In this document: piece by piece, positions 3,428-20,986 of the stretch | Position numbering within the stretch: the first letter of the stretch is position 1 | Layout: the number at the start of each line of letters is the position of its first letter | Assembly (NCBI GenBank): GCA_000720995.1 | Contig: JOEL01000042.1 | Coordinates: forward strand, 1-55,218 | Length of the DNA: 55,218 nucleotides | Direction: 5' to 3' | Source of the DNA: Streptomyces celluloflavus | GTDB taxonomy: Bacteria > Actinomycetota > Actinomycetes > Streptomycetales > Streptomycetaceae | The notes under the pieces: generated by a model | What the model saw: the letters and a program-made list of their open reading frames with translations, nothing else | What the model was told of the DNA's origin: nothing | Database searches by the model: none | Translations under genes and position numbers: made by a program

Positions 3428-3439
3428 CTACGCGCGTAG
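3428..3439. promoter_or_regulatory. CTACGCGCGTAG palindrome upstream of add (copy 1 of 3)
   Basis: A perfect 12-bp palindrome, 16 bp before the add start and 4 bp before a -10-like TAGAGT (3444-3449). It sits in the -35/-10 spacer, where a bound protein would block polymerase. The same 12 bases occur upstream of deoC (15270) and pnp (20975). Confidence 0.75.
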
Positions 3440-3443
3440 GCGT

Positions 3444-3449
3444 TAGAGT
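3444..3449 (+). promoter_or_regulatory. -10 element of a probably leaderless add promoter
   Basis: TAGAGT lies 6 nt before ATG 3456. Transcription would start at or next to the A of the start codon, and no Shine-Dalgarno sequence precedes the gene. Confidence 0.5.
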
Positions 3450-3455
3450 GCCGAG

Positions 3456-4571
3456 ATGACGAGCGAGACCACCAACCTCCCGAGCAGTGAACACATCCGG
3501 CGCGCACCCAAGGTGCTGCTGCACGATCACCTCGACGGCGGCCTGCGCCCCGGCACCATCGTCGACCTGGCCCGCGAGACGGGTTACGACGGACTCCCCG
3601 AAACCGACCCGGCCAAGCTCGGGGTCTGGTTCCGCGAGGCCGCCGACTCCGGTTCGCTGGAGCGCTATCTGGAGACCTTCGCGCACACCTGTGCCGTCAT
3701 GCAGACCCGCGCGGCCCTGGTCCGGGTGGCGGCCGAATGCGCCGAGGACCTGGCCGCCGACGGCGTCGTCTACGCCGAGGTCCGCTACGCCCCCGAGCAG
3801 CACCTGGAGGGCGGGCTCAGCCTCGAAGAGGTCGTCGAGGCCGTCAACGAGGGCTTCCGGGAAGGCGAGCGGCGGGCCCGCGCCGACGGCAACCGCATCC
3901 GCGTCGGCGCCCTGCTGACCGCCATGCGGCACGCCGCCCGCGCCCTGGAGATCGCCGAACTCGCCAACCGCTACCGCGACTCGGGCGTCATCGGCTTCGA
4001 CATCGCGGGCGCCGAGGCCGGCTTCCCGCCCACCCGCCACCTCGACGCCTTCGAGTACCTCAAGCGCGAGAACAACCACTTCACCATCCACGCCGGTGAA
4101 GCCTTCGGCCTCCCGTCCATCTGGCAGGCGCTCCAGTGGTGCGGCGCCGACCGGCTCGGCCACGGCGTCCGGATCATCGACGACATCGAGGTCGCCGACG
4201 ACGGCTCGGTCACCCTCGGCCGGCTCGCCTCCTACGTACGGGACAAGCGCATCCCGCTGGAGATGTGCCCGACCTCCAACCTCCAGACCGGTGCCGCCGC
4301 CTCCTACGCGGAGCACCCGATCGGGCTGCTGCGCCGCTTGCAGTTCAGGCTCACCGTGAACACCGACAACCGCCTGATGAGCGGCACGGACATGTCCCGG
4401 GAATTCGAGCACCTGGTCAAGACATTTCGATACACGCTCGATGACCTGCAATGGTTCACAGTCAATGCGATGAAATCAGCTTTCATTCCTTTCGATGAAC
4501 GTCTGGCGATGATCAATGACGTGATCAAGCCCGGGTACGCGGAGCTGCGCGCCGAATGGCTGTTCCGGTAG
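3456..4571 (+). CDS. add: Adenosine deaminase
   Basis: Hydrolyses adenosine and deoxyadenosine to inosine and deoxyinosine in purine salvage; cytoplasmic zinc enzyme, 371 residues, full length. Family motifs run in order: metal-binding HDHLDGG near residue 23, FTIHAGEA with the third zinc His and catalytic Glu, GHGVRI with the catalytic His, SNLQTGA, and NTDNR near the C-terminus with the metal Asp. The gene stands alone with a terminator at 4649, a palindromic operator at 3428 and a leaderless promoter. It shares the operator with deoC and pnp, which act later in the same route. Confidence 0.95.
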
Positions 4572-4648
4572 AGCGCCACAGCACCTGCCGTGAACAGTGG
4601 TTCTGACCCTGCGTAAGGGGAATCGACGGACGGCGACAGGGAAATTCG

Positions 4649-4681
4649 AACGGCCGGTGGGATCTTCTGCCGGCCGTTTTT
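4649..4681 (+). terminator. Rho-independent terminator after add
   Basis: AACGGCCGG (4649-4657) pairs with CCGGCCGTT (4670-4678) around a 12-nt loop, followed by a run of T (4677-4681). Confidence 0.8.
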
Positions 4682-4766
4682 CCCCGGCCGTGGCTGATTG
4701 CGGTGGCGGTGACCGCCTCACTAGGTTGCTGTGCCGGTCAAGCCCCCATCACGAGGACGTAATGCG

Positions 4767-5051
4767 ATGAAGCAGGGAACCATCAAGATTCTCGGTGCCG
4801 CCGTGCTCGGCGCCGCCTTCGCCGCCACCGCGGCGGGCACCGCCGCCGCCGCTCCGTCGGTCGACGGGGCCGGCGTCACCAAGGTGCTGGGTGGTCTGCC
4901 GCTCGCGCAGGCCGCCAAGACCGTCTCCGGGGTCACCCGGACCCAGCCGGGCGACGACGGCGTCCAGGGCAACCTCAACCAGAAGGGCAACAGCCTGCTG
5001 GGCGGGTTCCCCACGAACGTGGTCACCAAGGGCCTGCACCTCGGCGGCTGA
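4767..5051 (+). CDS. Small secreted protein
   Basis: A 94-residue protein with a clear signal peptide: MKQ start, hydrophobic Ala/Gly stretch, then AAAAPSVDG with cleavage probably after the Ala run. The mature part is about 65 residues with no Cys and ends LHLGG. Start ATG 4767 has GAGGAC about 9 nt upstream; an in-frame ATG at 4731 would place residues before the signal and is less likely. Its style (short Ala-rich secreted protein ending in Gly) resembles the protein at 11401. Function unknown. Confidence 0.7.
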   Translation: MKQGTIKILGAAVLGAAFAATAAGTAAAAPSVDGAGVTKVLGGLPLAQAAKTVSGVTRTQPGDDGVQGNLNQKGNSLLGGFPTNVVTKGLHLGG

Positions 5052-5123
5052 ACCTGCCGACCTCCCCCGTTCCGTAGGGGACACCCCGTTCTCCCCGCTC
5101 CCGGTTCCGTACGGGACACCCGG

Positions 5124-5170
5124 CCGTGCCCCGGCCGTGCGCCGCCTCTCGCGCACGGACCGGGGCACGG
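5124..5170. terminator. Long GC hairpin between convergent genes
   Basis: CCGTGCCCCGG (5124-5134) pairs with CCGGGGCACGG (5160-5170), with an inner stem CCGTGCGC/GCGCACGG (5135-5142, 5151-5158). It lies downstream of the small secreted protein and of the PspC gene, so it can serve both directions. Just before it, at about 5078-5122, are two imperfect copies of a roughly 20-bp unit containing GTTCCGTA and GGGACACCC. Confidence 0.7.
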
Positions 5171-5250
5171 TCATGAGTACGCCGACGGTCGTTCGTGAGC
5201 AGGCCGGCCGTGCGCGGGACGCCGACGGGCCGCGGGTTCGCTGGGGCGGG

Positions 5251-5457
5251 CTACCAGGCGGTGGAGCCGGCGGTCTCCTCGGAGGGGAGGAGTATCCACA
5301 GGGCCAGGTAGACGAGGCACTGTGTGCCGGGGAGCAGGCACGAGAGCAGGAAGAGCACGCGCATCGTGGCCGGGGTCGTACCGAAGCGGCGGGCCAGGCC
5401 CGCGCAGACCCCGGCGATCATTCGGTTGTGGTGCGGGCGGACCAGTGCGGCGGCCAT
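5251..5457 (-). CDS. PspC-domain small membrane protein
   Basis: 68 residues. The PspC signature is seen as NRMIAGVCAGLARRFG, followed by a hydrophobic stretch (VLFLLSCLLPGTQCLVYLAL) forming one or two membrane helices and a short acidic tail. PspC-domain proteins sit in the cytoplasmic membrane and take part in envelope stress responses. There is no associated pspA here. It follows the VanZ gene on the same strand after 45 bp and may be co-transcribed with it. Confidence 0.85.
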   Translation of the reverse strand: MAAALVRPHHNRMIAGVCAGLARRFGTTPATMRVLFLLSCLLPGTQCLVYLALWILLPSEETAGSTAW

Positions 5458-5502
5458 GGCGGCGACTCCTTTTCGACTCCGTGGGGCGGGTGCCCCGATG
5501 TC

Positions 5503-6054
5503 TCAAAGGTAGGTTCGCGAGCCGGAGAGAACATCGGCCTGCGGGGCCGGACCGACCCTGGTGATCCTCGGGGTCCTGCCGCCGCGGCGCTCCTCCCGGC
5601 GGCGTAGCCGGGACCGCAACCCAGGGACTACGGCCAGGTGCGCCAGTGCTACCCCCACGGTGTTCAGCAGCACCGTGTCGACGTCCGGAACCTGGCCCGG
5701 CACCGCGGTCTGGAGCAGCTCGACGGTCAGCGAGATCATCGCGCCGGCGAAGACGGTACGGGCCAGGGACGCCAGTGGGGAAACGTTCAGGCGCCCGGCC
5801 GCCAGCGGGAGCAGCACCCCCAGCGGCGCCAGCAGCAGCAACCCGCCGCCCAGCTCCCGTACGGCCTCCCACGGACCGTGCGACAGCTCGGCGCTGATCG
5901 ACGCCAGCGGTTCGAGGTTCGGCGCGGGCACCCAGGGCACCGTCCGGGGCCGCAGCATCAGCCAGCCGACGGTCAGCAGATGCGCCACCAGGAGGAGAAG
6001 GCAGGTGACGCGCAAACGGGGGGCGACGGTGCCGCCGGGGCCAAGACGCTGCAC
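5503..6054 (-). CDS. VanZ-family membrane protein
   Basis: 183 residues with GTG start. Four hydrophobic helices and the family pattern of a first helix with LLLVAHLLTVGWLMLRP, then WEAVRELGGGLLLLAPLG, SLTVELLQTAVPGQVPDVDTV and a final helix before a basic tail. VanZ-like proteins are named after a teicoplanin-resistance factor of unknown mechanism; the Streptomyces members have no proven role. It lies between PspC and the afsQ-linked lipoprotein on the same strand, so an envelope-related role is plausible but inferred. Confidence 0.8.
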   Translation of the reverse strand: MQRLGPGGTVAPRLRVTCLLLLVAHLLTVGWLMLRPRTVPWVPAPNLEPLASISAELSHGPWEAVRELGGGLLLLAPLGVLLPLAAGRLNVSPLASLARTVFAGAMISLTVELLQTAVPGQVPDVDTVLLNTVGVALAHLAVVPGLRSRLRRREERRGGRTPRITRVGPAPQADVLSGSRTYL

Positions 6055-6138
6055 ACAGGCCAGGACGCCGGTAGCGGGGGCCGCGGTTCCGCTCCGCCGC
6101 GCCCGTCTTGGCCCGTCTTGCCTGGGGGGTGCCGCGCG

Positions 6139-6813
6139 CTACCGGGGCAGCGGATCGCCCCAGCCCGCGTTCTGGGCGATGTCGGGGTGCGTACGCACCT
6201 CGGCGGAGCAGGCGTAGCGCTCCGGCGCGTCGTCGCCGGGCCCGCCCAGCACGGCCGCGTGCGTCCGCCCCAGCGCCGCCCCCGCACCGTACGTGCACGC
6301 CAGCTGCGCCAGCGCGAAGGACGGCAGATCGTCCGGCCGGATGCTCAGCCGCAGCGCGTCCGCGGGGTCGCCCGCGCGCGGTCCCGCGACCCGCAGGTTC
6401 TGGGGCACCGCGGTGCTGAACCCGGCCGCCTGCTCGGCGGCCGAGGGCTCCTTCTGGAGCTCGGTCAGCAGCGCACGGGCCTCCTGGAGGCGCGCCCCCT
6501 CGGCCGGAGTGCCCTCGGACCGGGCCACGGTCCGCTCCACCTGGACCAGCGCCGAACTGCACACCAGATAGACGGTGACCCGGGCGCCGTCGGGAACGGC
6601 GGTCCCCGTGTCTCCCGCCGGGACCTTGCAGCTCACCCGCGCGGGCGCGCCGCCCGCGTCGACCGGTACGGACGTGCCCCGGACGCCGCAGCCCGCGGCT
6701 GCGAGCGCGAGGGCCGCCAGGGCGACGGCGCGCCGCCACGCGCGTATGGGCGGCCCGCCCGGACCGGTCCGCGGCGCGCGGGTGGCGCGCCGGCTGTGCG
6801 GGGGCCGTGTCAT
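6139..6813 (-). CDS. Lipoprotein of the afsQ operon
   Basis: 224 residues. An Arg-rich N-terminus (twin Arg-like RR near residue 27) and a hydrophobic stretch end in the lipobox LAAAGC, so it is a lipoprotein outside the membrane. The ATG at 6813 overlaps the afsQ2 stop by four bases (ATGA), showing translational coupling. The rest is a globular domain with PDGARVTVYLVCSSALVQVER, suggestive of a GerMN-like fold, but I cannot be sure. By position it matches the conserved lipoprotein gene downstream of afsQ2; it may modulate the sensor. Confidence 0.85.
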   Translation of the reverse strand: MTRPPHSRRATRAPRTGPGGPPIRAWRRAVALAALALAAAGCGVRGTSVPVDAGGAPARVSCKVPAGDTGTAVPDGARVTVYLVCSSALVQVERTVARSEGTPAEGARLQEARALLTELQKEPSAAEQAAGFSTAVPQNLRVAGPRAGDPADALRLSIRPDDLPSFALAQLACTYGAGAALGRTHAAVLGGPGDDAPERYACSAEVRTHPDIAQNAGWGDPLPR

Positions 6814-8675
6814 CGGTCGTCCTCCGTGCCCTCGTCGGCCGCGCGGGAGGCGCCCCGGCCGCCCTCGCGGCCCCGGGTGACGCCGCCGTCCCGCCGGCCG
6901 TCCTGGACCAGCAGGGAGGCGTCCATCGGCAGCCGCAGGGTGAAGACCGCGCCGCCCTCCGGCAGATTGGCGGCGGTGATCTCGCCGCCGTGGATATGCG
7001 CGTTCTCCAGCGCGATCGACAGGCCCAGACCGCTGCCCTCCGACCGGGGCCGGGACGCGCTCGCCTTGTAGAAGCGGTCGAAGACGTGCGGCAGGACCTC
7101 CTGCGGGATGCCGGGGCCGTGGTCCCGTACCCGGATCACCAGATCGCCGCCGCCGGCCCGGCTCGGGCCCTCCGCCGGGCTCCCGCCGACCGGGACGTCC
7201 GGCTCGCCGGGCCCGCCGTCCGCACCGGTCCCGTCCGGAGCCGCCCCGTCGTCGGGGCCGTCCGTGCGGACGCCCGTGCCGCCGTCCGGCACGTCCTCGG
7301 TGTGGACGGAGACCCGTACCGGCGAGCCGCCGTGCTTGAGGGCGTTGCCGATCAGATTCGCCAGGATGACATCGAGGCGGCGCGGGTCGAGGCGGGCCAC
7401 GATGCCGCGGTCCGCGTCCAGATGGACCGCGTCCAGCCAGGCCCGCGCGTCGATACAGGCGGTCACCTGGTCCGCGACATCGACATCGTCCAGCACCAGC
7501 CGGGCCGTCCCCGCGTCGAAGCGGGTGACCTCCATCAGGTTCTCCACCAGGTCGTTCAGCCGCCGGGTCTCGCTGACCACCAGCTGCACGGCGGGCGCGA
7601 TCATCGGATCGAGGGAGTCGGCCTCCTCCTCCAGCACCTCCGAGACCGCGGTGATCGCCGTCAGCGGCGTCCGCAGCTCGTGCGACATATCGGCGACGAA
7701 CCGCCGCGAGGACGCCTCGCGCGCGCTCAGCTCCTCCACCCGCTGTTCGAGCCGCTCCGCCGTGCGGTTGAACGTCCGGGACAGATCGGCCAGCTCGTCC
7801 GTGCCGGTCACCCGCAGCCGGGTGTCGAGGCGGCCCTCGCCGAGCTGCCGCGCCGCGTGGCCGAGCCGCTGTACGGGCCGCAGCACGGTCGTCGCGGCGG
7901 CCTGCGCCAGCAGCGCCGAGCCGACCAGCGCCAGCGCGGTCGCGATCCCCAGCGACCAGGCCAGCGAGTTGAGGTCCTGCCGCTCGGTGGCCAGCGACTT
8001 CATCAGGTAACCGGTCGGGCCGCCGCCGATCACCTTCGCCCCGGCGAGGAGATAGGGGGTGTCCCCGATCACCGTGCGCTGCCAGTACAGATGGTGCGGA
8101 TAGCTGTTCGATTCGTCGACCGGGCGCACCGCGTTGACGGCGGTCCGCAGCGAGGCGGGCACGCTCGTGGGCGTCAGCAGGTCCTCGTTGGTGGTGACCA
8201 CGCAGTCCTTGCCCGCGCTGTCCACTCCGATCAGCAGCACCGCGTAGTTCTGCGGCCCACCCGCCATCTGCCGTGCCGCGTCCCGGAGTTCGGCGCACCG
8301 GGGCCGCAGCGGCAGCGATCGGGTGCTGTCCTCCAGCGACTTGCGGAAGTCCTTGAGCACGGCGTTCTGGGTGCGGTCCAGGACGGTGTTGCGGTTGAGC
8401 CAGTACGCGATACCGGACGCGGAGACCGCGGCGGTCAGCGCGACCAGCGCGAAGACGACGACCAGCCGCAGCCGCAGGCTCGTCCAGCGCAGCAGCCCGG
8501 ACGCCCGCCGCAGCCACCGCACCAGTCGCCGGCCGGCCGCCGCCCCCCTGCGGCCACCGCCGGAGCCGGCCGCGCGCCCCTCAGTCCCAGCCGTGCCCGC
8601 CGTCCCGTCCGTATCCGTACCCCGCGCCTCCGCTGTCCTGTCGTCGCTCCCGCCGGGCGTGACGCGTCCCGTCAC
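6810..8675 (-). CDS. afsQ2: Sensor histidine kinase AfsQ2
   Basis: Membrane sensor kinase that phosphorylates AfsQ1. In order: an Arg-rich leader of about 60 residues, TM1 (LRLVVVFALVALTAAVSASG), extracytoplasmic sensor region, TM2 (SLGIATALALVGSALLA), HAMP, dimerisation/phosphoacceptor box with SHELRTPLTAI, N-box NLIGNALKHG, then G-boxes DHGPGIP and GSGLGLSIA. GTG 8675 overlaps the afsQ1 stop (GTGA), giving 621 residues. This is long for AfsQ2. The excess lies in the leader, in a Gly/Pro/Asp-rich insert of about 50 residues between the N and G1 boxes (around 7170-7300), and in a basic C-terminal tail. Naming rests on operon order and the divergent sigQ. Confidence 0.88.
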   Translation of the reverse strand: MTGRVTPGGSDDRTAEARGTDTDGTAGTAGTEGRAAGSGGGRRGAAAGRRLVRWLRRASGLLRWTSLRLRLVVVFALVALTAAVSASGIAYWLNRNTVLDRTQNAVLKDFRKSLEDSTRSLPLRPRCAELRDAARQMAGGPQNYAVLLIGVDSAGKDCVVTTNEDLLTPTSVPASLRTAVNAVRPVDESNSYPHHLYWQRTVIGDTPYLLAGAKVIGGGPTGYLMKSLATERQDLNSLAWSLGIATALALVGSALLAQAAATTVLRPVQRLGHAARQLGEGRLDTRLRVTGTDELADLSRTFNRTAERLEQRVEELSAREASSRRFVADMSHELRTPLTAITAVSEVLEEEADSLDPMIAPAVQLVVSETRRLNDLVENLMEVTRFDAGTARLVLDDVDVADQVTACIDARAWLDAVHLDADRGIVARLDPRRLDVILANLIGNALKHGGSPVRVSVHTEDVPDGGTGVRTDGPDDGAAPDGTGADGGPGEPDVPVGGSPAEGPSRAGGGDLVIRVRDHGPGIPQEVLPHVFDRFYKASASRPRSEGSGLGLSIALENAHIHGGEITAANLPEGGAVFTLRLPMDASLLVQDGRRDGGVTRGREGGRGASRAADEGTEDDR

Positions 8676-9349
8676 TGCGGGGTGTCCAGCCGGTAGCCGA
8701 CGCCGCGGACCGTACGGATCAGGGTCGGCGAGGACGGTACGTCCTCCACCTTCGCGCGCAGCCGCTGCACACAGGCGTCCACCAGACGCGAATCGCCGAG
8801 GTAGTCGTGCTCCCACACCAGCCGCAGCAACTGCTGCCGGGACAGCGCCTGTCCGGGCCGGCGGCTCAGCTCCAGCAGCAACCGCAGCTCGGTGGGGGTC
8901 AGCTGGAGGTCCTCGCCGTTCTTGGTGACGGTCATCGCCGACCGGTCGATCACCAGCGAACCGAACGTCGCCGAATCGCTGGACTCGCGCTCCCCGCGGC
9001 GCAGCACCGCCCTGATCCGGGCGTCCAGCACCCGCCCCTGGACCGGCTTGACGACATAGTCGTCCGCCCCGGACTCCAGCCCCACCACGACGTCGATGTC
9101 GTCGTTGCGCGCGGTGAGCAGAATGATGGGCAGCTGGTCCGTCCGCCGGATCCGCCGGCACACCTCGAAGCCGTCGATGCCCGGCAGCATCACATCCAGC
9201 ACGATCAGATCCGGACGCTGCTCGCGCAGCAGCTTCAGGCCGTCCTCGCCCGTCGCCGCGGTCACCACACGGTGACCCTGGCGGGAGAGCGAGAGTTCGA
9301 GGGCCGTGCGGATGGCGTCGTCGTCCTCGATCAGCAACAGGAAAGGCAC
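8672..9349 (-). CDS. afsQ1: Response regulator AfsQ1 (OmpR family)
   Basis: 225 residues when started at GTG 9349, right before the receiver domain (acidic pocket EDDD, phosphoacceptor Asp52 in LIVLDVMLPG, Lys in VVKPV). An OmpR winged-helix domain with LQLTPTELRLL and [11 protein letters not shown] follows. AfsQ1 controls nitrogen-linked antibiotic production and sigQ in Streptomyces; it binds GTnAC-N6-GTnAC, and such a site lies at 9451-9466 upstream. An ATG at 9367 is an alternative start. Coupled to afsQ2 and the lipoprotein by 4-base overlaps, forming a three-gene operon. Confidence 0.93.
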   Translation of the reverse strand: MPFLLLIEDDDAIRTALELSLSRQGHRVVTAATGEDGLKLLREQRPDLIVLDVMLPGIDGFEVCRRIRRTDQLPIILLTARNDDIDVVVGLESGADDYVVKPVQGRVLDARIRAVLRRGERESSDSATFGSLVIDRSAMTVTKNGEDLQLTPTELRLLLELSRRPGQALSRQQLLRLVWEHDYLGDSRLVDACVQRLRAKVEDVPSSPTLIRTVRGVGYRLDTPQ

Positions 9350-11880: not shown

Positions 11881-12747
11881 TCAGACGCCCATCGGGTGCC
11901 AGACCGTCTTCGTCTCCAGGAAGGCCAGCAGGCGGTCGGTGCCCGGGTCGGCCGCCCAGTCGGCCGGGCCGGGGCGCCGGACGCGCTTGAGGTTGTCCGC
12001 CGCGGCCCGCTCCAGGTCGGTGGCGAGCTCGGCGCCGGCGCCGGTCAGGTCGATCGCGTTGACGTCCTGGTGGGCGGCGAGCGGGGTGGCGAGCTCCGCG
12101 GTGCGGCCCGAGAGGATGTTGACGACGCCGCCCGGGAGGTCGGAGGTGGCGAGCACCTCGGCCAGCGAGAGCGCGGGCAGCGGGGCGTCCTCGGCGGCCA
12201 CCACGACCGCCGTGTTACCGGTGACGATGACGGGCGCGAGCACCGAGACCAGGCCGAGGAAGGACGAGTCCTGGGGGGCCAGGACCGCCACGACACCGGT
12301 CGGTTCGGGGGACGAGAGGTTGAAGTACGGACCCGCGACCGGGTTGGCGGACCCGGCGATCTGGGCGACCTTGTCGGACCAGCCCGCGTACCAGACCCAG
12401 CGGTCGACGGCGGCCTCGACGACCGCCGCGGCCTTGGCCTTCGAGAGCCCCTCCGCGGCGGCGACCTCCGCGGTGAACTGGTCGCGGCGGCCCTCCAGCA
12501 TCTCGGCGACGCGGTAGAGGATCTGGCCGCGGTTGTAGGCGGTGGCGCCGGACCAGCCGCCGAACGCCTTGCGGGCCGCGACGACCGCGTCCCTGGCGTC
12601 CTTGCGGGAGGCGAGCGGGGCGTTGGCGAGCCAGCGGTTCTTGGAGTCGGTCACCTCGTACACCCGTCCGCTCTCGGAGCGGGGGAACGCGCCCCCGAGG
12701 TACAGCTTGTAGGTCTTGAGCACGCTCAAGCGGTCGGACTGGTTCAT
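11881..12747 (-). CDS. Aldehyde dehydrogenase-like protein lacking catalytic residues (ALDH16 C-terminal-domain type)
   Basis: 288 residues of the aldehyde dehydrogenase fold covering only the N-terminal NAD-binding half: YKLYLGGAFPRSESG, ATAYNRGQILYRVAEMLEGR, PTGVVAVLAP, PGGVVNILSG. Where active enzymes have the ELGGK Glu there is IDLTGAG, and no catalytic Cys region follows. Its ATG overlaps the stop of the full-length dehydrogenase (ATGA), so the two are made together. Together the chains total about 780 residues, the size and order of single-chain bacterial ALDH16, whose second domain is also inactive. It is probably a non-catalytic partner rather than a decaying gene. Confidence 0.8.
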   Translation of the reverse strand: MNQSDRLSVLKTYKLYLGGAFPRSESGRVYEVTDSKNRWLANAPLASRKDARDAVVAARKAFGGWSGATAYNRGQILYRVAEMLEGRRDQFTAEVAAAEGLSKAKAAAVVEAAVDRWVWYAGWSDKVAQIAGSANPVAGPYFNLSSPEPTGVVAVLAPQDSSFLGLVSVLAPVIVTGNTAVVVAAEDAPLPALSLAEVLATSDLPGGVVNILSGRTAELATPLAAHQDVNAIDLTGAGAELATDLERAAADNLKRVRRPGPADWAADPGTDRLLAFLETKTVWHPMGV

Positions 12748-14225
12748 CGGTCGCGCTCCCCATCTCGTGCGCCGCGCTCGCTCGTCGGCCCCTCGGCTCC
12801 GGCGAGGTACGCCGCCAGACCGTGCCGGCCGCCCTCGCGGCCGTAGCCCGACTCCTTGTAGCCGCCGAAGGGCGAGGCCGGGTCGAACTTGTTGAACGTG
12901 TTGGACCAGACGATCCCGGCGCGCAGCTTGCTCGCCGTCCACAGCATCCGCGAGCCCTTCTCGGTCCAGATGCCCGCAGAGAGGCCGTAGGGCGTGTTGT
13001 TGGCCTTCTCCACGGCCTCCGCGGGGGTGCGGAAGGTCAGGACGGACAGCACCGGGCCGAAGATCTCCTCGCGCGCGATGCGGTGCGCCTGGGTGACGCC
13101 GGTGAAGAGGGTCGGCGCGAACCAGTAGCCGGTGGTGGGCAGTTCGCAGGCCGGGGCCCAGCGCTCGGCGCCCTCCGCCTCGCCCGCGTCGGCCAGTGCG
13201 GTGATCCGGGCCAGCTGCTCGGCGGAGTTGACGGCGCCGATGTCGGTGTTCTTGTCCAGCGGGTCGCCGACCCGCAGGGTCCCCATCCGGCGCTTGAGGG
13301 AGGCCAGCAGCTCCTCGGCGACCGACTCCTGGACCAGGAGGCGCGAGCCCGCGCAGCAGACGTGCCCCTGGTTGAAGAAGATGCCGTTGACGATGCCCTC
13401 GACGGCCTGGTCGAGCGGGGCGTCGTCGTAGACGATGTTCGCCGCCTTGCCGCCCAGTTCGAGCGTCACCCGCTTGTCCGTGCCGGCGACCGTCCGGGCG
13501 ATGGCCTTGCCGACCTCGGTGGAGCCGGTGAAGGCGATCTTGTTGACGTCCGGGTGCGCGACCAGCGCCGCGCCCGTGGTGCCGTCGCCGGTGAGGATGT
13601 TGACGACGCCCTTGGGCAGGCCCGCCTGGCGGCAGATGTCCGCGAAGAAGAGCGCGGAGAGCGGGGTGGTCTCGGCGGGCTTGAGTACGACGGTGTTGCC
13701 CGTCGCCAGCGCCGGGGCGATCTTCCACGCGAGCATCAGCAGCGGGAAGTTCCAGGGGATGACCTGGCCCGCGACGCCCAGCGGGCGCGGATCGGCGCCA
13801 TAGCCCGCGTGGTCGAGCTTGTCGGCCCAGCCCGCGTAGTAGAAGAAGTGCGCGGCGACCAGCGGGAGGTCGGCGTCGCGCGACTCGCGGATCGGCTTGC
13901 CGTTGTCGAGCGTCTCCAGGACGGCCAGCTCGCGCGAGCGCTCCTGGATGATCCGGGCGATCCGGAAGAGGTACTTGGCGCGCTCGGCGCCGGGCAGCGC
14001 GGACCACGTCCCGAACGCCTTGCGGGCCGCCCGGACGGCGCGGTCGACGTCGTCGGCGGTGGCCTGGGTGTACTCGGCCAGCACCTCTTCGGTGGCGGGC
14101 GAGACGGTCTTGCGGAGTTCCCCGCCCGCGCCCTCGGCGAACTCGCCGTCGATGAACAGCCCGTAGCTCGGCGCGAGGTCGACGACCGCGCGGGACTCGG
14201 GAGCCGGTGCGTACGCGAATGCCAT
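12744..14225 (-). CDS. Aldehyde dehydrogenase, catalytic chain
   Basis: 493 residues, full-length NAD(P)-dependent aldehyde dehydrogenase. Seen: PWNFPLLM (cofactor/oxyanion Asn), KPAETTPLSAL, FTGSTEVGK, general-base Glu in TLELGGKAAN, catalytic Cys in NQGHVCCAGSR near residue 288, EEIFGPVLS, and PFGGYKESGYGREGG near the C-terminus. It lies 2 bp downstream of deoC and overlaps the following ALDH-like gene, so it most likely oxidises the acetaldehyde released by DeoC. The substrate is inferred from context. With its partner it resembles a split ALDH16. Confidence 0.9.
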   Translation of the reverse strand: MAFAYAPAPESRAVVDLAPSYGLFIDGEFAEGAGGELRKTVSPATEEVLAEYTQATADDVDRAVRAARKAFGTWSALPGAERAKYLFRIARIIQERSRELAVLETLDNGKPIRESRDADLPLVAAHFFYYAGWADKLDHAGYGADPRPLGVAGQVIPWNFPLLMLAWKIAPALATGNTVVLKPAETTPLSALFFADICRQAGLPKGVVNILTGDGTTGAALVAHPDVNKIAFTGSTEVGKAIARTVAGTDKRVTLELGGKAANIVYDDAPLDQAVEGIVNGIFFNQGHVCCAGSRLLVQESVAEELLASLKRRMGTLRVGDPLDKNTDIGAVNSAEQLARITALADAGEAEGAERWAPACELPTTGYWFAPTLFTGVTQAHRIAREEIFGPVLSVLTFRTPAEAVEKANNTPYGLSAGIWTEKGSRMLWTASKLRAGIVWSNTFNKFDPASPFGGYKESGYGREGGRHGLAAYLAGAEGPTSERGARDGERDR

Positions 14226-14227
14226 GG

Positions 14228-15256
14228 TCAGTCCACCGTGACGTAGTCGGGGCCGGAGTACCGGCCGGTGCTGAGCTTCTGGCGCTGCATCAGCAGGTCG
14301 TTCAGGAGGCTGGAGGCGCCGAAGCGGAACCAGTCGGCGGTCAGCCAGCGCTCGCCCAGCGTCTCGTTGACCATCACCAGGTACTTGACGGCGTCCTTGG
14401 TCGTCCGGATGCCGCCGGCCGGCTTCACCCCGACCTGGACCCCGGTGCTCTCGTGGAAGTCGCGGACGGCCTCCAGCATGAGGAGGGTGACGGGCGGGGT
14501 GGCGTTGACGGCCACCTTGCCGGTCGAGGTCTTGATGAAGTCGGCTCCCGCGAGCATCGCCAGCCAGGAGGCGCGGCGGACGTTGTCGTACGTCTGGAGC
14601 TCACCGGTCTCGAAGATGACCTTGAGGTGCGCGGCGCTGCCTCCCCCAGTCTCCGACTGGGAGGTGCCCCCAGCCCGTACGCACGCCTCCTTGACGGCCT
14701 TGATCTCCTCGAAGACCGCCATATAGCGGCCCGAGAGGAAGGCGCCCCGGTCGATCACCATGTCGATCTCGTCGGCGCCCGCCGCGACCGCGTCACGCGT
14801 ATCGGCAAGCTTGACCGGCAGCGCGACGCGGCCGGCCGGGAAGGCGGTGGCGACGGAGGCGACCTGGATGCCGGAGCCGCCGAGCGCCTCCTTGGCCGTC
14901 GCGACCATGTCGGGGTAGACGCAGACCGCGGCGACCCGGGGGGCGGTGCGGTCGGTGGGGTCCGGGAGGAGGGCCTTGGCGCACAGCGCCCGGACCTTGC
15001 CCGGGGTGTCCGCGCCTTCGAGGGTCGTCAGGTCGATCATCGAGATGGCGAGATCGATGGCGTACGCCTTCGCCGTCGTCTTGATCGAGCGGGTGCCGAG
15101 GGTGGCGGCGCGGGCCTGGAGGCCGACCGCGTCGACGCCCGGCAGGCCGTGCAGGAAGCGGCGCAGCGCACCGTCGTCGGCGGTCATGTCCGCCATCGAC
15201 GCCAGACGCCCCGCGGCTTCCTTGCCGTATGCGGGAACAGTGATGGGCATGGTCAC
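14228..15256 (-). CDS. deoC: Deoxyribose-phosphate aldolase
   Basis: Cleaves 2-deoxyribose-5-phosphate to acetaldehyde and glyceraldehyde-3-phosphate. 342 residues from GTG 15256, which lies 6 nt after TATGCT, so leaderless; an ATG two codons later (15250) is the other option. The Schiff-base Lys lies in ADFIKTSTGK and the second active-site Lys in VGVKPAGGIRT; VCVYPDMV and DEIDMVID are also conserved. Length suits the longer eukaryote-like DeoC group. First gene of deoC-ALDH-ALDH-like, with the CTACGCGCGTAG operator 14 bp before the GTG. Confidence 0.95.
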   Translation of the reverse strand: MTMPITVPAYGKEAAGRLASMADMTADDGALRRFLHGLPGVDAVGLQARAATLGTRSIKTTAKAYAIDLAISMIDLTTLEGADTPGKVRALCAKALLPDPTDRTAPRVAAVCVYPDMVATAKEALGGSGIQVASVATAFPAGRVALPVKLADTRDAVAAGADEIDMVIDRGAFLSGRYMAVFEEIKAVKEACVRAGGTSQSETGGGSAAHLKVIFETGELQTYDNVRRASWLAMLAGADFIKTSTGKVAVNATPPVTLLMLEAVRDFHESTGVQVGVKPAGGIRTTKDAVKYLVMVNETLGERWLTADWFRFGASSLLNDLLMQRQKLSTGRYSGPDYVTVD

Positions 15257-15262
15257 GAGGGG

Positions 15263-15268
15263 AGCATA
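15263..15268 (-). promoter_or_regulatory. -10 element of the deoC promoter, leaderless
   Basis: On the minus strand TATGCT is followed by six bases and then GTG 15256. The palindrome at 15270-15281 lies one base upstream of it. Confidence 0.5.
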
Positions 15269-15269
15269 T

Positions 15270-15281
15270 CTACGCGCGTAG
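15270..15281. promoter_or_regulatory. CTACGCGCGTAG palindrome upstream of deoC (copy 2 of 3)
   Basis: Identical to the 12-bp palindromes before add and pnp. It abuts the -10 element, so a bound protein would repress the deoC-ALDH operon. Confidence 0.75.
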
Positions 15282-15521
15282 CGGCATGCCACCCCCCGGG
15301 TGCCGCACCAAGGACCGATATGCGCGTAAAGGGAGTGATGGATTTCTGTGCGGTAGCTGTTACACAGCGGCGGAGCCGTCATCACAGGAGCCCCATAGTT
15401 TCTGCCTTGCCGCACCGCGCCACACTGCACCGCGCCACACCGACCGGTTCCCGGTCCCCACGCAGCGGGAGGTGCCCTGCGGTTCCGTCTCACCACGACC
15501 GGAACGCCCCGGGGGTCACAC

Positions 15522-16631
15522 ATGTCCGCTCAGCTCCACCACCGTCCGTCACCGCGCCGTAAGGGCGCCACCCTCGCCCTGCGCGCCGGCGCCGCTGCCG
15601 CCGCGGTGGCGGTGGCCGTCCTCGCCCCCGTCTCCAGCACCTTCGCCGCCACCCCCGCCGCCCCGTCCGCGCCGCGGACCGTCACCGCCGTTCCGGCGGC
15701 CGCCGACGGCGCCCAGCGCTACGCGGGCACACCGGTCTACATCGGCGACGGCATGGTGGCCGTACTGCGCCGCGACCCCGTCACCGGCGGTCCCGAGGCG
15801 TGGATCCGCTACGTCGGCCCGCAGTGGAAGCCGGGGGACGTGTACCTGGTCAAGGTGCTCGGACTGCTGAACCGCACGCACCCCGCCGAACAGTTCAACG
15901 GCGTGTCCGTCCGGCTGGTGGACACGGTGGGCAAGGGCAAGGCTCCGCAGCTGCGGGTCGGCGGCGGCACCGGCGGCCACCGGAGCTACCCGGTGCCGCC
16001 CGCCACCGCCCCGGCCACCGGCGGCGAGCGGACCGGCACCCGGCACGACGCCGGCAAGGCCGCGCACACGACGGGCGGCAAGACCGTGGCCGCGCACACC
16101 GGTTGCACCGCCACCCTGCGCCACGACATCGGCGCCGGCACCATGGCCATCCTGACCATGGGACCGCAGGGCCCCAAGGTGACGTTCGCGGACGCGGACG
16201 GTACGCCGCTCCCCGGCGTCCTCCTGGACCGCGCGCACCCCACCCTGCCCCGGTTCGGCGCGAAGATCATCGACCCGTACGGCGCGCACCCCACGTTCCG
16301 GTACCGGATGCAGGGCGGCGGCTACCCGGCCGGCACCCTCGCCTTCCCCTCGCTCGCCAAGGACTGCGGCACCACCGGACAGCACGGCGCCGGCAACAGC
16401 GGCACGGCCGGGAGCACGGGCAAGGCCACGGACGCCGCCGCACCGGCCAAGCCCGCCGGCGGCCGGACCACGGTGGTGCCCAAGGGCGGCGTCGCGGCCG
16501 GGGCCGAGGGGGTCGGGACGCCCGACAGCACCCCGCTGATCGCGGCGGGCGGGGCCGTCGCCGCGGTCGGCGCCGCGGGCATCGCGTACGCGGTGCGGCG
16601 CAACCGCCGCCCGGAGGGATCGCGGAGTTGA
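15522..16631 (+). CDS. Secreted, C-terminally anchored surface protein next to a sortase
   Basis: 369 residues. Signal peptide with basic start, Ala/Val core and cleavage near STFAATPA. A folded region of about 110 residues (YAGTPVYIGDG, YVGPQWKPGDVYLVKV) leads to a His/Gly/Thr-rich linker, a second region with TGCTATLRHDIGAG, a Gly/Ala/Pro linker, and a hydrophobic helix (PLIAAGGAVAAVGAAGIAYA) closing on a basic tail RRNRRPEG. The C-terminus has sorting-signal architecture but no LPXTG/LAXTG. The sortase starts inside its stop codon, so the two belong together; a plain membrane anchor is equally possible. Confidence 0.75.
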   Translation: MSAQLHHRPSPRRKGATLALRAGAAAAAVAVAVLAPVSSTFAATPAAPSAPRTVTAVPAAADGAQRYAGTPVYIGDGMVAVLRRDPVTGGPEAWIRYVGPQWKPGDVYLVKVLGLLNRTHPAEQFNGVSVRLVDTVGKGKAPQLRVGGGTGGHRSYPVPPATAPATGGERTGTRHDAGKAAHTTGGKTVAAHTGCTATLRHDIGAGTMAILTMGPQGPKVTFADADGTPLPGVLLDRAHPTLPRFGAKIIDPYGAHPTFRYRMQGGGYPAGTLAFPSLAKDCGTTGQHGAGNSGTAGSTGKATDAAAPAKPAGGRTTVVPKGGVAAGAEGVGTPDSTPLIAAGGAVAAVGAAGIAYAVRRNRRPEGSRS

Positions 16632-17278
16632 GCCGCCGCCTCGCGGGGCGTACGGCGGTCCGCGGGCCGGCGGCGGCCGGTCTGCTCCTCCTCGTCCTGG
16701 GCAGTGCGCTGATCGCCTGGGGGCTCATGGACCGCGGCGCCTCGGACGGGGCGCCGCCGGTCCAGGTGCGGGCGGCCGCCGTCCCGCCGCCCGTCCTCGC
16801 CCCGCAGCACGCCACGGCGGCCCCGTTGCCGGCCTCGCCGCCGGTGCGGGTCCGCATCCCCGCCGCGGAGGTGAACACCGGGCCGGTGCCGCGCCTGGGG
16901 CTGGCCGCGGACGGGACGGTCGAGGTGCCCACCGTCGCGCAGGCCGACCGGATCGGCTGGTACGACAAGGGCGTCACACCCGGCGAACCGGGCCCCGCCG
17001 TCCTCATCGGTCACTACGACACCGTCAACGGCCCCGCCGTGCTCCGCGACGTCGGCCGGATCAGGCCCGGCGACCGGATCTCGGTGGACCGCGCGGACGG
17101 TACGACGGCGGTCTTCACGGTCCGCGAGCTCCAGCAGGTGGACAAGGAGAGCTTCCCCACCCAGCGGGTCTACGGCGACACCGACCGCCCCGAGCTGCGG
17201 CTGATCACCTGCGGCGGCGCCCTCGTCGACGGCCACCGGCCGGACAACATCATCGTGTACGCCGATCTGACGCCGTAG
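16628..17278 (+). CDS. Class F sortase
   Basis: 216 residues from TTG 16628, which overlaps the previous stop (TTGA) and has GGAGGG 9 nt upstream. An N-terminal membrane helix (AAAGLLLLVLGSALIAWGL) and Pro/Ala linker lead to the sortase barrel. The catalytic triad is visible: His in LIGHYDT, Cys in LITCGG, Arg in DGHRPDN. It acts on the outer membrane face, joining surface proteins to peptidoglycan or processing them. The partner encoded just before is the likely client, though no classical sorting motif is seen in it. Confidence 0.88.
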   Translation: MSRRLAGRTAVRGPAAAGLLLLVLGSALIAWGLMDRGASDGAPPVQVRAAAVPPPVLAPQHATAAPLPASPPVRVRIPAAEVNTGPVPRLGLAADGTVEVPTVAQADRIGWYDKGVTPGEPGPAVLIGHYDTVNGPAVLRDVGRIRPGDRISVDRADGTTAVFTVRELQQVDKESFPTQRVYGDTDRPELRLITCGGALVDGHRPDNIIVYADLTP

Positions 17279-17337
17279 CGGCGCGCGGCGGGTGGCCCAC
17301 GGCGGGGCGCATCCCCCACGTGGCATCTCCTGCAACG

Positions 17338-17396
17338 GCGTCCGGCGCCGGACGCCCGCCCGAATGATGCCGTAACGCAATGTCCGGCATCCGGAC
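17338..17396. promoter_or_regulatory. Two TCCGG-type inverted repeats upstream of the PH-domain gene
   Basis: GCGTCCGGCGCCGGACGC (17338-17355) is a perfect 18-bp palindrome. GTCCGG-cat-CCGGAC (17382-17396) is a second inverted repeat 20 bp before ATG 17417. The first may end sortase transcription; the second sits at a promoter-like distance and may be an operator. Confidence 0.4.
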
Positions 17397-17416
17397 GGTC
17401 AGGCAGAATCGGCAGC

Positions 17417-18037
17417 ATGACGAGCGAACAGTCCACCCCGCCCCAGCAGCAGTACGCGGAGCGCAGCTACCGCTCGCCCGCGGCCCTGGCCGGCGGCGGA
17501 CTGCTGATCCTGCTCGGACTCTGGCTCGGTGGCGACGCGCTGCTGCGGGGCGTGCCCCAGACCAAGATCATGGCGGCGTTCGCCCTGATCCTCGGCGTGC
17601 CGCTGGTGGCCGCGTACACCCTGCGGCCCCTGGTGCGGGCGGGCGAGGACCGGCTGCTGGTGCGTAATCCGTTCCGTACCATCACGCTGCCCTGGGGCGC
17701 CGTGGACGATCTGCGGGCGGGGTTCTCCGCCGAGGTCTTCACCAGCGGCGGGAAGTACCAGCTGTGGGCCGTGCCGGTGTCGCTGCGCCAGCGCAAGAAG
17801 GCCAACCGGCAGGCGGCGCGCGGCGCGAACCCGCGCGGCCGCTTCGGCCCGCAGGCCGACGCGGGCCCGGCGCCGCGCGCGATGGCCGACCAGACCATGG
17901 ACGAGCTGCGCGAGATCAAGGAGCGGGCCGCGCACCGCGAGAGCGCCAAGGGCGAGCCGGTGGTGCGCTGGGCGTACGGGATCATCGCCCCGTGCGTGGT
18001 CGGCGCGGTCGGACTGATCGTGATGATGGCGCTGTAG
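17417..18037 (+). CDS. Membrane protein with a bacterial PH-like domain
   Basis: 206 residues. Two helices (ALAGGGLLILLGLWLGG, IMAAFALILGVPLVAAYTL), a short PH-like beta domain (EDRLLVRNPFRTITLPWGAVDDLRAG), a charged region (LREIKERAAHRESAKGE) and a last helix at the C-terminus. Widespread in actinobacteria; often annotated PH domain-containing, no defined role. Alone between two hairpins. Confidence 0.75.
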   Translation: MTSEQSTPPQQQYAERSYRSPAALAGGGLLILLGLWLGGDALLRGVPQTKIMAAFALILGVPLVAAYTLRPLVRAGEDRLLVRNPFRTITLPWGAVDDLRAGFSAEVFTSGGKYQLWAVPVSLRQRKKANRQAARGANPRGRFGPQADAGPAPRAMADQTMDELREIKERAAHRESAKGEPVVRWAYGIIAPCVVGAVGLIVMMAL

Positions 18038-18064
18038 GCGGCGGGCGGCCACCGTCCTGTTACA

Positions 18065-18098
18065 TGAAGCGGGCCCCGGAAGACCGGGGCCCGCTTCA
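18065..18098. terminator. Bidirectional terminator
   Basis: GAAGCGGGCCCCGG (18066-18079) pairs perfectly with CCGGGGCCCGCTTC (18084-18097) around AAGA. It lies between the convergent PH-domain and phosphohexomutase genes. Confidence 0.85.
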
Positions 18099-18127
18099 CG
18101 TACGACGGGGCGGCGCGCCCCGGAGGG

Positions 18128-19840
18128 TCAGATGCCGGCCGCCGCCGACAGGTCCGCCTTGACCGCGGCCAGCGCCGCGGCGGCCTGTGCGCGGGCCGCG
18201 GGCAGCGACTGCGCCGAGGCCACCGGGACGACGACCTCCAGATAGCACTTCAGCTTGGGCTCGGTGCCGCTGGGCCGGACCACCACCCGGCCGGCCGTCA
18301 CCCCCGACTCCGGCGAACCGGACAGGTGGTAGCGCAGCCCGTCGGTCGGCGGCAGCGCCGCGGTGCCCCGGGAGAGGTCCTCGGCACCGGTGACCGCCAG
18401 ACCGGCCAGCACCGTCGGCGGCTGCTCGCGCAGCCTGCGCATGGCGTCGGCGATCAGCGACAGGTCCTCGACCCGGACCGAGAGCTGGTCGGTGGCGTGC
18501 AGCCCGAACTTCAGCGCCAGGTCGTCGAGCAGGTCGCTGAGGGTGCGGCCGGACCGCTTGAGCCCGGCGGCCAGCTCCGCGATCAGCAGGGCGGCGGTGA
18601 TGCCGTCCTTGTCGCGGACGCCCGCCGGATCGACGCAGTAGCCGAGCGCCTCCTCGTACGCGTATCGCAGACCGTCCACCCGGGCCAGCCACTTGAAGCC
18701 GGTCAGCGTCTCCTCGTACGGGAGGCCGTCGGCGGCCGCGATCCGCGACAGCAGGGAGGACGACACGATCGTGGTGGCGAAGGTGCCCCGTCGCCCGCCG
18801 TCCCCCGTCTCCTCGCCGGTGCGCAGCTTGCCGGTGAGATGGGCGGCGAGCAGCGCGCCGACCTCGTCGCCGCGCAGCATCCGCCAGCCGTCCGCGGTGG
18901 CGGGGTCCGGTACGGCGACGGCGCAGCGGTCCGCGTCCGGGTCGTTGGCGATCACGATGTCCACGCTGCCCGGGGACAGGGCCCTGGCGGTGGCGAACGC
19001 GAGGTCCATCGCACCGGGCTCTTCCGGGTTGGGGAAGGCGACGGTGGGGAAGTCCGGGTCCGGCTCGGCCTGTTCCGCGACGACCACCGGGGCCGGGAAA
19101 CCGGCCCGCGCGAAGGCGGCGACGAGGGTGTCCCGGCCGACGCCGTGCATCGGCGTGTAGACGACCCGCGCGTCCCGGGGGGAACCCTGGGTCAGCACGG
19201 CGTCCGTACGCGCCAGATAGGCGGCCAGGACGTCGTCACCGAGGGTCTGCCAGCCGGACTCCGGCCGCGGTACGTCGGCCAGCGAGCGGACCGCGGCGAT
19301 CTCGGCGGCGATCTCACCGTCCGCGGGCGGCACGATCTGCGAGCCGTCGCCCAGATAGACCTTGTAGCCGTTGTCCCGCGGCGGGTTGTGGCTGGCGGTG
19401 ACCTCGACTCCGGCGACCGCGCCCAGGTGCCGTATGGCGAAGGCCAGGACGGGGGTGGGCAGCGGGCGGGGCAGCACCGAGGCCCGGAGCCCGGCGCCGA
19501 CCATCACGGCCGCGGTGTCGCGGGCGAAGTCGGCGCTCTTGTGGCGCGCGTCGTAGCCGATGACGACCAGTCCCGTACCGGCGCCGTGGGCCTTCAGATA
19601 CGCGGCGAGACCGGCCGCCGCGCGGATGACCACCGAGCGGTTCATCCGCATCGGGCCCGCGCCCAGCTCCCCGCGCAGCCCGGCGGTGCCGAACTGGAGG
19701 GTGCCGGCGAACCGGGCGGCCAGCTCGGGGAGGTCCTCCGAGCCGATGAGCGCGGACAGTTCCTCCCGGGTCTCCGGGTCGGGGTCCTCGGCCAGCCATG
19801 CCCTGGCCCGGCTGATCAGCTCCGCGGGATCGGTAGCCAC
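18128..19840 (-). CDS. Phospho-sugar mutase, PGM2-like (probable phosphopentomutase)
   Basis: 570 residues from GTG 19840, with AGGAG 7 nt upstream. Alpha-D-phosphohexomutase superfamily: phosphoserine loop TASHNPPRDNGYKVY, metal loop NDPDADRCAV, sugar-binding segment and C-terminal phosphate loop RPSGTEPKLK. The PRDNGYKVY form and length resemble the PGM2/phosphopentomutase branch. Between pnp and deoC, the useful reaction would be deoxyribose-1-phosphate (or ribose-1-phosphate) to the 5-phosphate. Usually labelled phosphomannomutase; the pentose role is inferred from context. Confidence 0.85.
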   Translation of the reverse strand: MATDPAELISRARAWLAEDPDPETREELSALIGSEDLPELAARFAGTLQFGTAGLRGELGAGPMRMNRSVVIRAAAGLAAYLKAHGAGTGLVVIGYDARHKSADFARDTAAVMVGAGLRASVLPRPLPTPVLAFAIRHLGAVAGVEVTASHNPPRDNGYKVYLGDGSQIVPPADGEIAAEIAAVRSLADVPRPESGWQTLGDDVLAAYLARTDAVLTQGSPRDARVVYTPMHGVGRDTLVAAFARAGFPAPVVVAEQAEPDPDFPTVAFPNPEEPGAMDLAFATARALSPGSVDIVIANDPDADRCAVAVPDPATADGWRMLRGDEVGALLAAHLTGKLRTGEETGDGGRRGTFATTIVSSSLLSRIAAADGLPYEETLTGFKWLARVDGLRYAYEEALGYCVDPAGVRDKDGITAALLIAELAAGLKRSGRTLSDLLDDLALKFGLHATDQLSVRVEDLSLIADAMRRLREQPPTVLAGLAVTGAEDLSRGTAALPPTDGLRYHLSGSPESGVTAGRVVVRPSGTEPKLKCYLEVVVPVASAQSLPAARAQAAAALAAVKADLSAAAGI

Positions 19841-20047
19841 GTGATGCTCCTGACGGTGGATGCGGGTGCCTGACGGTCTGACGGTGGTCTGCGGGTGGGG
19901 GAGCGGGCGCCGGACGACCGGGGCCGGGGCCGCGCGGACGGAACACGGGGCGGATGGCGGGGCCGGTCCGCCGGGCGCGGCGGCGGGGCGGGAGCCTACC
20001 GCCGCCGCGCCCGAACACGGGGGATGCAGTCCGGCCACCGGAAGCGG

Positions 20048-20065
20048 TCGGCTTTCGGAAGCCGA
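20048..20065. terminator. Hairpin between pnp and the mutase gene
   Basis: TCGGCTT-tcgg-AAGCCGA (20048-20065), in a stretch rich in further GGCTTCCGG/CCGGAAGCC-like arms. Probably ends pnp transcription on the minus strand. The rest of the 19841-20127 gap shows only GC-rich filler. Confidence 0.5.
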
Positions 20066-20127
20066 CCCGGCCTCCGGAAGCCGCCCCGGCTTCCCGCCTC
20101 CCAGACGTCTTCACCGCCCCGAACGGC

Positions 20128-20949
20128 TCAGAGCTTGCCGAGCACCTGGGCGAGCAGGCTGCCCATCCGGGTCGCGGAGTCGCGGCCGGCCTGGAGCACC
20201 TCCTCGTGGTTGAGCGGTTCGCCCGTCATACCGGCGGCGAGGTTCGTCACCAGCGACAGGCCCAGCACCTCGGCGCCGGCCTCGCGCGCGGCGATGGCCT
20301 CCAGGACGGTGGACATACCGACCAGGTCCGCGCCCAGGGTCCGGACCATCTTGATCTCGGCCGGGGTCTCGTAGTGCGGGCCGGGGAACTGCGCGTAGAC
20401 GCCCTCCTCCAGGCTCGCGTCCACCTCCTTGCACAGCGCGCGCAGCCGCGGCGAGTACAGGTCCGTCAGGTCGACGAAGTTCGCGCCGACGATCGGGGAG
20501 GTGGCGGTGAGGTTGAGGTGGTCGCTGATGAGGACCGGCTGGCCGGGGCGCATGCCCTCGCGCAGACCACCGCACCCGTTGGTGAGCACGACGGTCTTGC
20601 AGCCGGCGGCGACGGCGGTACGGACGCCGTGCGCGACGGCGGCGACCCCGCGGCCCTCGTAGTAGTGCGTACGGCCCAGGAAGACCAGCGCGCGCTTCTC
20701 GCCGACCCGGTACGAGCGGATCGTGCCGCCGTGTCCGGCGACGGCCGGGGCCGGGAAGCCGGGCAGCTCGGTGACCGGGAACTCGTGCTCGGGCGCGCCC
20801 AGCGCCTCGGCGGCCGGGGCCCAGCCGGAGCCCATCACCAGGGCGACGTCGTGGGTCTCGGCGCCGGTGAGCTCGCGCAGGCGTGCGGCGGCGGCGTCGG
20901 CGGCGCCCTGCGGGTCGCGCGCGATGTCCGAAGTAACTGATGCGTTCAC
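20128..20949 (-). CDS. Purine nucleoside phosphorylase
   Basis: Phosphorolysis of (deoxy)inosine and (deoxy)guanosine to base and (deoxy)ribose-1-phosphate. 273 residues, trimeric class: [13 protein letters not shown] phosphate loop, [50 protein letters not shown] and [13 protein letters not shown] are all present. GTG start at 20949, 7 nt after TACCCT and without a ribosome site, so probably leaderless. Operator CTACGCGCGTAG at 20975. Acts between adenosine deaminase and the phosphopentose mutase. Confidence 0.94.
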
Positions 20950-20974
20950 GCGGACGAGGGTAGCCGGTAATTGC

Positions 20975-20986
20975 CTACGCGCGTAG
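20975..20986. promoter_or_regulatory. CTACGCGCGTAG palindrome upstream of pnp (copy 3 of 3)
   Basis: Third exact copy, 25 bp before the GTG start. It covers the region where the -35 should lie relative to the -10-like TACCCT (minus strand 20962-20957). Confidence 0.75.

Follow-up and report, generated by a model that had tools for sequence, protein, structure and literature searches.

A palindrome conserved throughout Streptomycetaceae is the putative operator of a PurR-like regulon for nucleic-acid scavenging and purine supply

In Escherichia coli, DeoR controls the deo genes, and the DeoR/CytR deo regulon places pnp, deoC, deoA and nucleoside uptake under common control. Also in E. coli, PurR, a member of the LacI family, uses a palindromic operator for its purine regulon (available part of PMC10912719). 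In Bacillus subtilis, one factor, PurR, acts through the PurBox on both the de novo purine genes and the hypoxanthine/guanine permeases pbuG and pbuO (available part of PMC8789054). NupR of Bacillus thuringiensis, of the GntR/HutC type, is a regulator of nucleoside transport with a 20-bp imperfect nup site (available part of PMC9430930). In-silico regulons for nucleoside utilisation have been described for the LacI-family proteins UriR, AdeR and HpxR; the accessible text of that study names a SCO5692 regulon in Streptomycetaceae, without a function, and no Streptomyces nucleoside regulon was found in it (PMC4052901). The literature that we searched, with most subscription journals outside its scope, yielded no Streptomyces transcription factor for purines or nucleosides, nor the site described below, in agreement with a first-pass annotation of this DNA that knew of no described regulator for it. 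The 12-mer occurs in the text of two papers and its 10-base core in that of eight, none of which, to judge by the titles, deals with Streptomyces regulation.

The site is a 12-bp palindrome, CTACGCGCGTAG, and it is likely the operator of one PurR-like repressor for nucleic-acid scavenging and purine supply across Streptomycetaceae. As in the regulon of Bacillus PurR, purine synthesis and permeases go together, the site being shared by purSQL, purNH, a purine-type permease and genes of nucleoside uptake; the two differ in the operator and in the inclusion here of nucleoside catabolism, nucleotidase-type genes and deoC. Bacillus PurR is of a phosphoribosyltransferase-like type that binds PRPP. 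The E. coli PurR system likewise combines a palindromic operator with a purine regulon, whereas the palindrome here is 12 bp long and its gene set differs. Relative to the DeoR/CytR regulon the operator sequence is different, and purine synthesis, nucleotidase-type genes and add are added, and NupR, unlike the present site, is mainly concerned with nucleoside transport. The palindrome shares with LacI operators the central CpG that is typical of them. In the CN-hydrolase operon described below its centre is TG or GG, which is unusual for LacI.

The window, meaning the whole stretch of 55,218 nucleotides of Streptomyces celluloflavus DNA that was analysed, contains three exact copies of CTACGCGCGTAG, before add, deoC and pnp (Table 1), and a scan of its full length returned no other, just as the first-pass annotation had listed them. 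The spacings to the start codons that it gave (16-25 bp, and 14 bp for deoC) hold at add and pnp, while deoC measures 13 nt. Of the deoC-ALDH-ALDH series that it named, deoC and the first aldehyde dehydrogenase are upheld by Pfam. By context, the phosphohexomutase-family gene after pnp is phosphopentomutase-like. Near add, an MFS transporter gene, assigned by Pfam on the G087 copy, is divergent from a gene for a LysR-type regulator (window:143-2559; L095:13277-15573), the latter being present in 14 of 17 clusters.

Table 1. Palindromes, -10-like elements and genes of the nucleoside cluster in the window.
Feature	Position	Strand	Remarks
CTACGCGCGTAG palindrome of add	3428..3439		16 nt to ATG 3456; exact at 37 distinct family add places
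-10-like TAGAGT of add	3444..3449	+	6 nt before ATG, 4 nt from palindrome; similar TAnnnT in other add promoters
add, adenosine deaminase	3456..4571	+	Pfam A_deaminase 6e-104
Aldehyde dehydrogenase gene after deoC	12744..14225	-	Pfam Aldedh 1.2e-162
deoC, deoxyribose-phosphate aldolase type	14228..15256	-	Pfam DeoC/LacD aldolase 1.6e-21
-10-like TATGCT of deoC	15263..15268	-	1 nt from palindrome; similar in other deoC promoters
CTACGCGCGTAG palindrome of deoC	15270..15281		Gene on minus strand; 13 nt to GTG 15256
Phosphohexomutase-family gene after pnp	18128..20038	-	Pfam PGM_PMM I-IV; start codon uncertain
pnp, purine nucleoside phosphorylase type	20128..20949	-	Pfam PNP_UDP_1 7e-44
-10-like TACCCT of pnp	20957..20962	-	12 nt from palindrome, 7 nt before GTG
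CTACGCGCGTAG palindrome of pnp	20975..20986		Gene on minus strand; 25 nt to GTG 20949
DeoR-type regulator	23335..24330	+	Pfam HTH_DeoR + DeoRC; without palindrome upstream

The 8.68-Mb source genome holds four exact copies in total (reversed control, one), all at nucleoside genes. The whole-genome search that the first-pass annotation had proposed thus added a single copy, on contig C75 outside the window, between genes for a BMP-type substrate-binding protein and an ABC-transporter ATPase; permease and pyrimidine nucleoside phosphorylase genes come next, as in a nucleoside-type ABC transporter locus (nup). A Markov background (orders 1-4, fitted to 152,253 bases of the source genome) leads one to expect 0.0017-0.0029 copies in the window and 0.27-0.45 in the genome, where three and four are seen. 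At up to two mismatches the window has six matches, which is not above shuffles (mean 4.49). As the count in the window is post hoc and a second 12-bp palindrome, CGGACCGGTCCG, likewise occurs three times in it, the case for the site rests on its conservation across genomes. The pattern CTAYNNGCGTAG has five places in the source genome, all at regulon promoters and the fifth at purS, and its reversed control gives 14 forward and 11 reverse matches.

All 101 genomes sampled from the genus have exact copies of CTACGCGCGTAG, two to six each (reversed control, 0-3), as do 100 of 101 from the family; in a sample of the class, 28 of 28 genomes of the same genus and 10 of 268 others carry it, the three genome samples overlapping. 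Among the best 80 of 576 relatives of the PNP protein, all from Streptomyces, an exact copy lies upstream of pnp in every case (80/80), at 25 nt from the start in 67 loci, 24 nt in 11, and 33 and 113 nt in one each. The same loci have an exact copy near the deoC start wherever deoC is in range (65/65). When the 80 pnp loci are aligned, all 12 positions of the palindrome, and the T that precedes it, reach 2.00 bits; the remaining invariant columns fall only in parts of the -10-like element and in the start codon. A chance or structural origin, be it G+C-rich self-complementary DNA, coding constraint or a terminator, would explain the few copies that are coding or terminator-like (L063, L125), but it can practically be dismissed given this exactness at pnp and deoC against an expectation of less than half a copy per genome.

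In G398, the single family genome lacking an exact copy, add has CTACACGCGTAG and deoC has CTACTCGCGTAG. Elsewhere in the family, other genera show, beside exact copies, CTACTCGCGTAG and CTACGCGTGTAG at deoC and, at pnp, CTATGCGCGTAG (read as the reverse complement) and ATACGCGCGTAG. The palindrome thus tolerates single changes, both at its centre and in one of its arms. Outside the family, in seven loci and two further places in G184, the site precedes none of the query genes. Judged by its conservation, the site is real, regulatory and family-wide.

Of the 177 distinct exact sites in the family loci examined, tblastn placed 164 before, or in the first codons of, assigned genes, 157 at nucleoside or purine genes and seven at a recurrent secreted-looking protein. 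By gene there are 53 sites at pnp, 37 at add, 29 at the nup ATPase gene, 22 at deoC, nine at add-type genes of less than 70% identity, seven at the secreted-looking protein, five at purN, and one each at a 5'-nucleotidase-type gene (in G328) and at purS/Q; these counts are not frequencies, the loci having been chosen partly for their extra copies, and are to be read as lower bounds. The purN sites belong to two genera, g127 (4) and g128 (1), and purH is the following gene in each of two scanned loci. At the second, add-type adenosine deaminase gene the palindrome falls in codons 3-7 or nearby at eight distinct places (for example L023:1501 and L092:4283). The 13 unassigned sites comprise two that belong to pnp and add, where the sequence breaks off (L028, L100:86), and 11 at scattered, unrelated places, such as coding or terminator-like positions or near a Cas3 gene. 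The first-pass annotation had named many unrelated copies, or a lack of conservation in related species, as grounds for abandoning a regulon; the search found the opposite, in the share of sites assigned as well as in the conservation at pnp and deoC.

In unannotated loci the genes were called by a GC-frame script, so that starts may be wrong, and "secreted" refers to the look of the N-terminus. The secreted-looking protein has about 390-575 residues and a weak match to ABC_transp_aux only, some members bearing Ig-like or carbohydrate-binding tails, and the exact palindrome stands at its start in several genomes (L145, L154, L155, L157, L158, L163, L168). It may be an enzyme that acts on nucleotides or nucleosides outside the cell. 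Imperfect second copies, tandem or overlapping, accompany the site before this protein (L163:3627-3661, L145:1487-1512) and at a 3'-nucleotidase-type gene (L274:1967-1999). In one genome, three tandem CACTAC-N4-GTAGTG units spaced 17 bp apart lie beside a CopD-type gene (L129:1484-1529) and look like the array of another factor.

Sites with one mismatch number 58 in four genomes (G000, G087, G206 and G267). As a class they are not enriched: with exact copies included, the four genomes have 18, 17, 25 and 14 matches against 23, 29, 19 and 14 for the reversed control. When orthology was judged by flanking similarity, for all except the deoA site (L100:7206), 29 of the 58 fell into eight orthologous groups and the other 29 into none. 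Two of the groups, in the dnaA coding sequence and at the rpoB start, occur in 4/4 genomes each, make up eight of the 29 grouped sites and look like coding constraint. The rpoB copy, GTACGCGCGTAG, overlaps the start codon in all four (L244, L263, L276, L292); its coding part is constrained, its roughly 10 upstream bases less obviously so.

Of the remaining groups, those present in 4/4 genomes are the ones at the 5'-nucleotidase-type gene, at a Xan_ur_permease gene for a purine-type permease, presumably AzgA-like, in the intergenic region between purSQL and lsr2, which is divergent from purS, and within the first codons of a nuclease-like protein with a GmrSD_C domain (Pfam on two). A CN-hydrolase operon has the site in 3/4 genomes and a 3'-nucleotidase-type gene in 2/4; the nucleotidase-type proteins match NCBIfam nucleotidase models below their cut-offs. 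The four genomes differ at purS, where three one-base variants of the word are found, and a fifth genome, G227, carries it exactly, so it is the palindrome and not its flank that is kept; the source genome's purS copy has one mismatch. The CN-hydrolase operon continues with a class-III aminotransferase in G267 and, in G206, with PucR, a second CN-hydrolase, an amidohydrolase that by context is dihydropyrimidinase-like, and a cytosine/purine-type permease, a context that suggests pyrimidine-type catabolism. In G399, CTACGTGCGTAG precedes a CN-hydrolase gene, and deoA in G267 has CTATGCGCGTAG.

One word, exact or with a single mismatch, stands before genes of purine synthesis as well as before those of salvage or uptake, as in a PurR-like regulon. 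A core regulon, in which nucleoside genes share a regulatory site, is strongly supported by the sequence comparisons, and the evidence for a wider target list beyond nucleoside salvage is good. The nucleoside salvage regulon of the first-pass annotation therefore stands in its common site and was drawn too narrowly in its scope, which would also take in purSQL or purNH, the permease, the nucleotidase-type genes and the pyrimidine-type operon.

The arrangement of the promoters bears on how the bound factor would act. The -10-like elements were read by eye, and promoters and transcription starts were deduced from sequence. The genes add, deoC and pnp look leaderless, each having TAnnnT 6-7 nt upstream of its start codon, which fits the earlier description of the palindrome at the core of leaderless-looking promoters with these same elements. 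At add and deoC the palindrome appears just upstream of the -10, inside the -35/-10 spacer, and at pnp, by eye, at the would-be -35 position. Its distance to the -10-like element is about 4 nt at add and at the 5'-nucleotidase-type gene, 1 nt at deoC, 12 nt at pnp and longer at purS and nup, and such variation within the core promoter fits steric repression. An activator would suit the geometry of pnp, purS and nup, where the palindrome is near -35 or slightly farther out, and that of the purine-type permease, where it is more distant still; at add and deoC, however, the palindrome is wedged between -35 and -10, 4 and 1 nt from the latter, and from gene to gene its phase relative to the -10 varies, making an activator unlikely. 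Repression is the probable mode. The common repressor proposed earlier thus has strong support from conservation for its shared site, and the repression itself is what we infer.

The first-pass annotation took the DeoR-type protein of the cluster as the nearest candidate for this repressor. Its gene adjoins pnp in 16 of 17 clusters (the stretch lies outside the data in the 17th), and the 60 residues after its start are identical in 13 family sequences, a constraint that parallels that on the palindrome. Nonetheless, it is improbable that this protein binds the palindrome and senses (deoxy)ribose phosphate in the manner of E. coli DeoR. The lack of a site before deoR itself, already pointed out in the first pass, extends to all 38 deoR upstream rows (34 distinct, 160 bases each), the best match having four mismatches in 16 rows and five in 22. 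An orthologue from another family (G153), with 72% identity over the query and the same SEVTVRRDV segment, is found in a locus without CTAC-N4-GTAG that has AACGACAGATAACGAT and adjoins an ABC-transporter ATPase gene of general sugar type. Of DeoR proteins from outside the family, the nearest have 57-72% identity; their loci, with those of more distant ones 20 in all, are every one without CTAC-N4-GTAG, and in L220-L222, but not in other loci, DeoR adjoins an RbsA-type (general) ATPase gene. NCBIfam's curated DeoR model for E. coli, NF007961, gives the protein 70 bits against a cut-off of 244, and AgaR, its best model, is also below cut-off.

The DeoR protein is better linked to a direct repeat, AACGAC-N4/5-AACGAT, a motif defined post hoc. 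In its general form, AACGA[CTA]-N3-7-AACGA[TC], the repeat occurs at 22 distinct places in 2.2 Mb of DNA, overlaps included: 18 are distinct pnp promoters, in which it starts 40 bp before the palindrome, one is the G153 DeoR promoter and three are elsewhere. It is present in 47 of the 80 pnp loci (best 80 of 576 relatives) and absent from the window's own pnp promoter; AACGAC-N5-AACGAT is seen, for example, at L013:1461 and L104:14201. From these sequences, the repeat is probably the operator of DeoR and the palindrome that of another protein, and DeoR is probably a separate local regulator that would act on pnp through another site. With promoters that lack the palindrome and a different repeat linked to it, DeoR is weakened as a candidate. 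The deoR promoters have a CTGAAA-centred stretch in 35 of 38 rows, with the perfect inverted repeat CTGCTGAAAGCAG in 11 of 38, which DeoR itself or some other factor might recognise.

Two other regulators are encoded behind a site of this kind, the PucR-type protein of the pyrimidine-type operon and a GntR-type protein by a one-mismatch site in G267. Almost certainly neither is the regulator. In six of 19 genomes, the window's among them and each bearing exact sites, PucR has no match at E<=1e-40, and it has a close copy (88-100%) in just three of 19; the GntR-type protein is absent at E<=1e-20 from 11 of 12 genomes. Absence from the genomes compared thus excludes both as general regulators. 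The cluster also has LysR-type, sigma-factor and response-regulator genes, whose usual site types differ from this palindrome. LacI, TetR, GntR and MarR patterns gave no match in 26 loci, in a scan that is weak, the patterns being strict, and a regulator is the first gene in none of the eight conserved one-mismatch groups, as regards autoregulation.

We take SCO4920 to be the S. coelicolor DeoR of this cluster. SCO4920 or the other SCO numbers of the cluster occur in the accessible parts of PMC3224704, PMC4848846, PMC3293853, PMC2714318 and PMC7244524. The first of these has a co-expression module centred on SCO4920, and the targets reported here are not among the genes named in its accessible part. 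The last reports that S. coelicolor has more of adenosine deaminase SCO4901, together with three putative nucleases, than S. lividans, a pattern that would be expected of co-regulated genes.

Given the above, we favour a PurR-like repressor. One dimeric transcription factor, conserved throughout Streptomycetaceae, would bind CTACGCGCGTAG and, covering the -35/-10 spacer or the -35 region, would most likely block RNA polymerase. Its targets would form one metabolic chain, beginning with nuclease-like and nucleotidase-type genes with secretion-type starts, followed by uptake through the nucleoside ABC transporter and a base permease, catabolism by add, pnp, deoC (deoA in one genome) and the pyrimidine-type operon, and purine synthesis de novo by purSQL in Streptomyces and purNH in two related genera. 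By analogy with Bacillus PurR, scavenging and purine synthesis may be released together on purine need or on a nucleoside-derived signal. The chances seem evenly balanced that the protein is a master repressor not described before, which responds to purines, is unrelated to both known PurR proteins and, through a single 12-bp operator that hardly varies, couples extracellular nucleic-acid digestion by nuclease and nucleotidases, uptake of nucleosides and bases, nucleoside catabolism and de novo purine synthesis. Short and nearly invariant, with targets from nucleotidase-type genes to purSQL, the operator offers a ready bait. The site could link the recycling of nucleic acids from lysed mycelium, a part of Streptomyces development, to purine supply, and, should the master-repressor reading be true, dying hyphae would be recyclable by the living colony.
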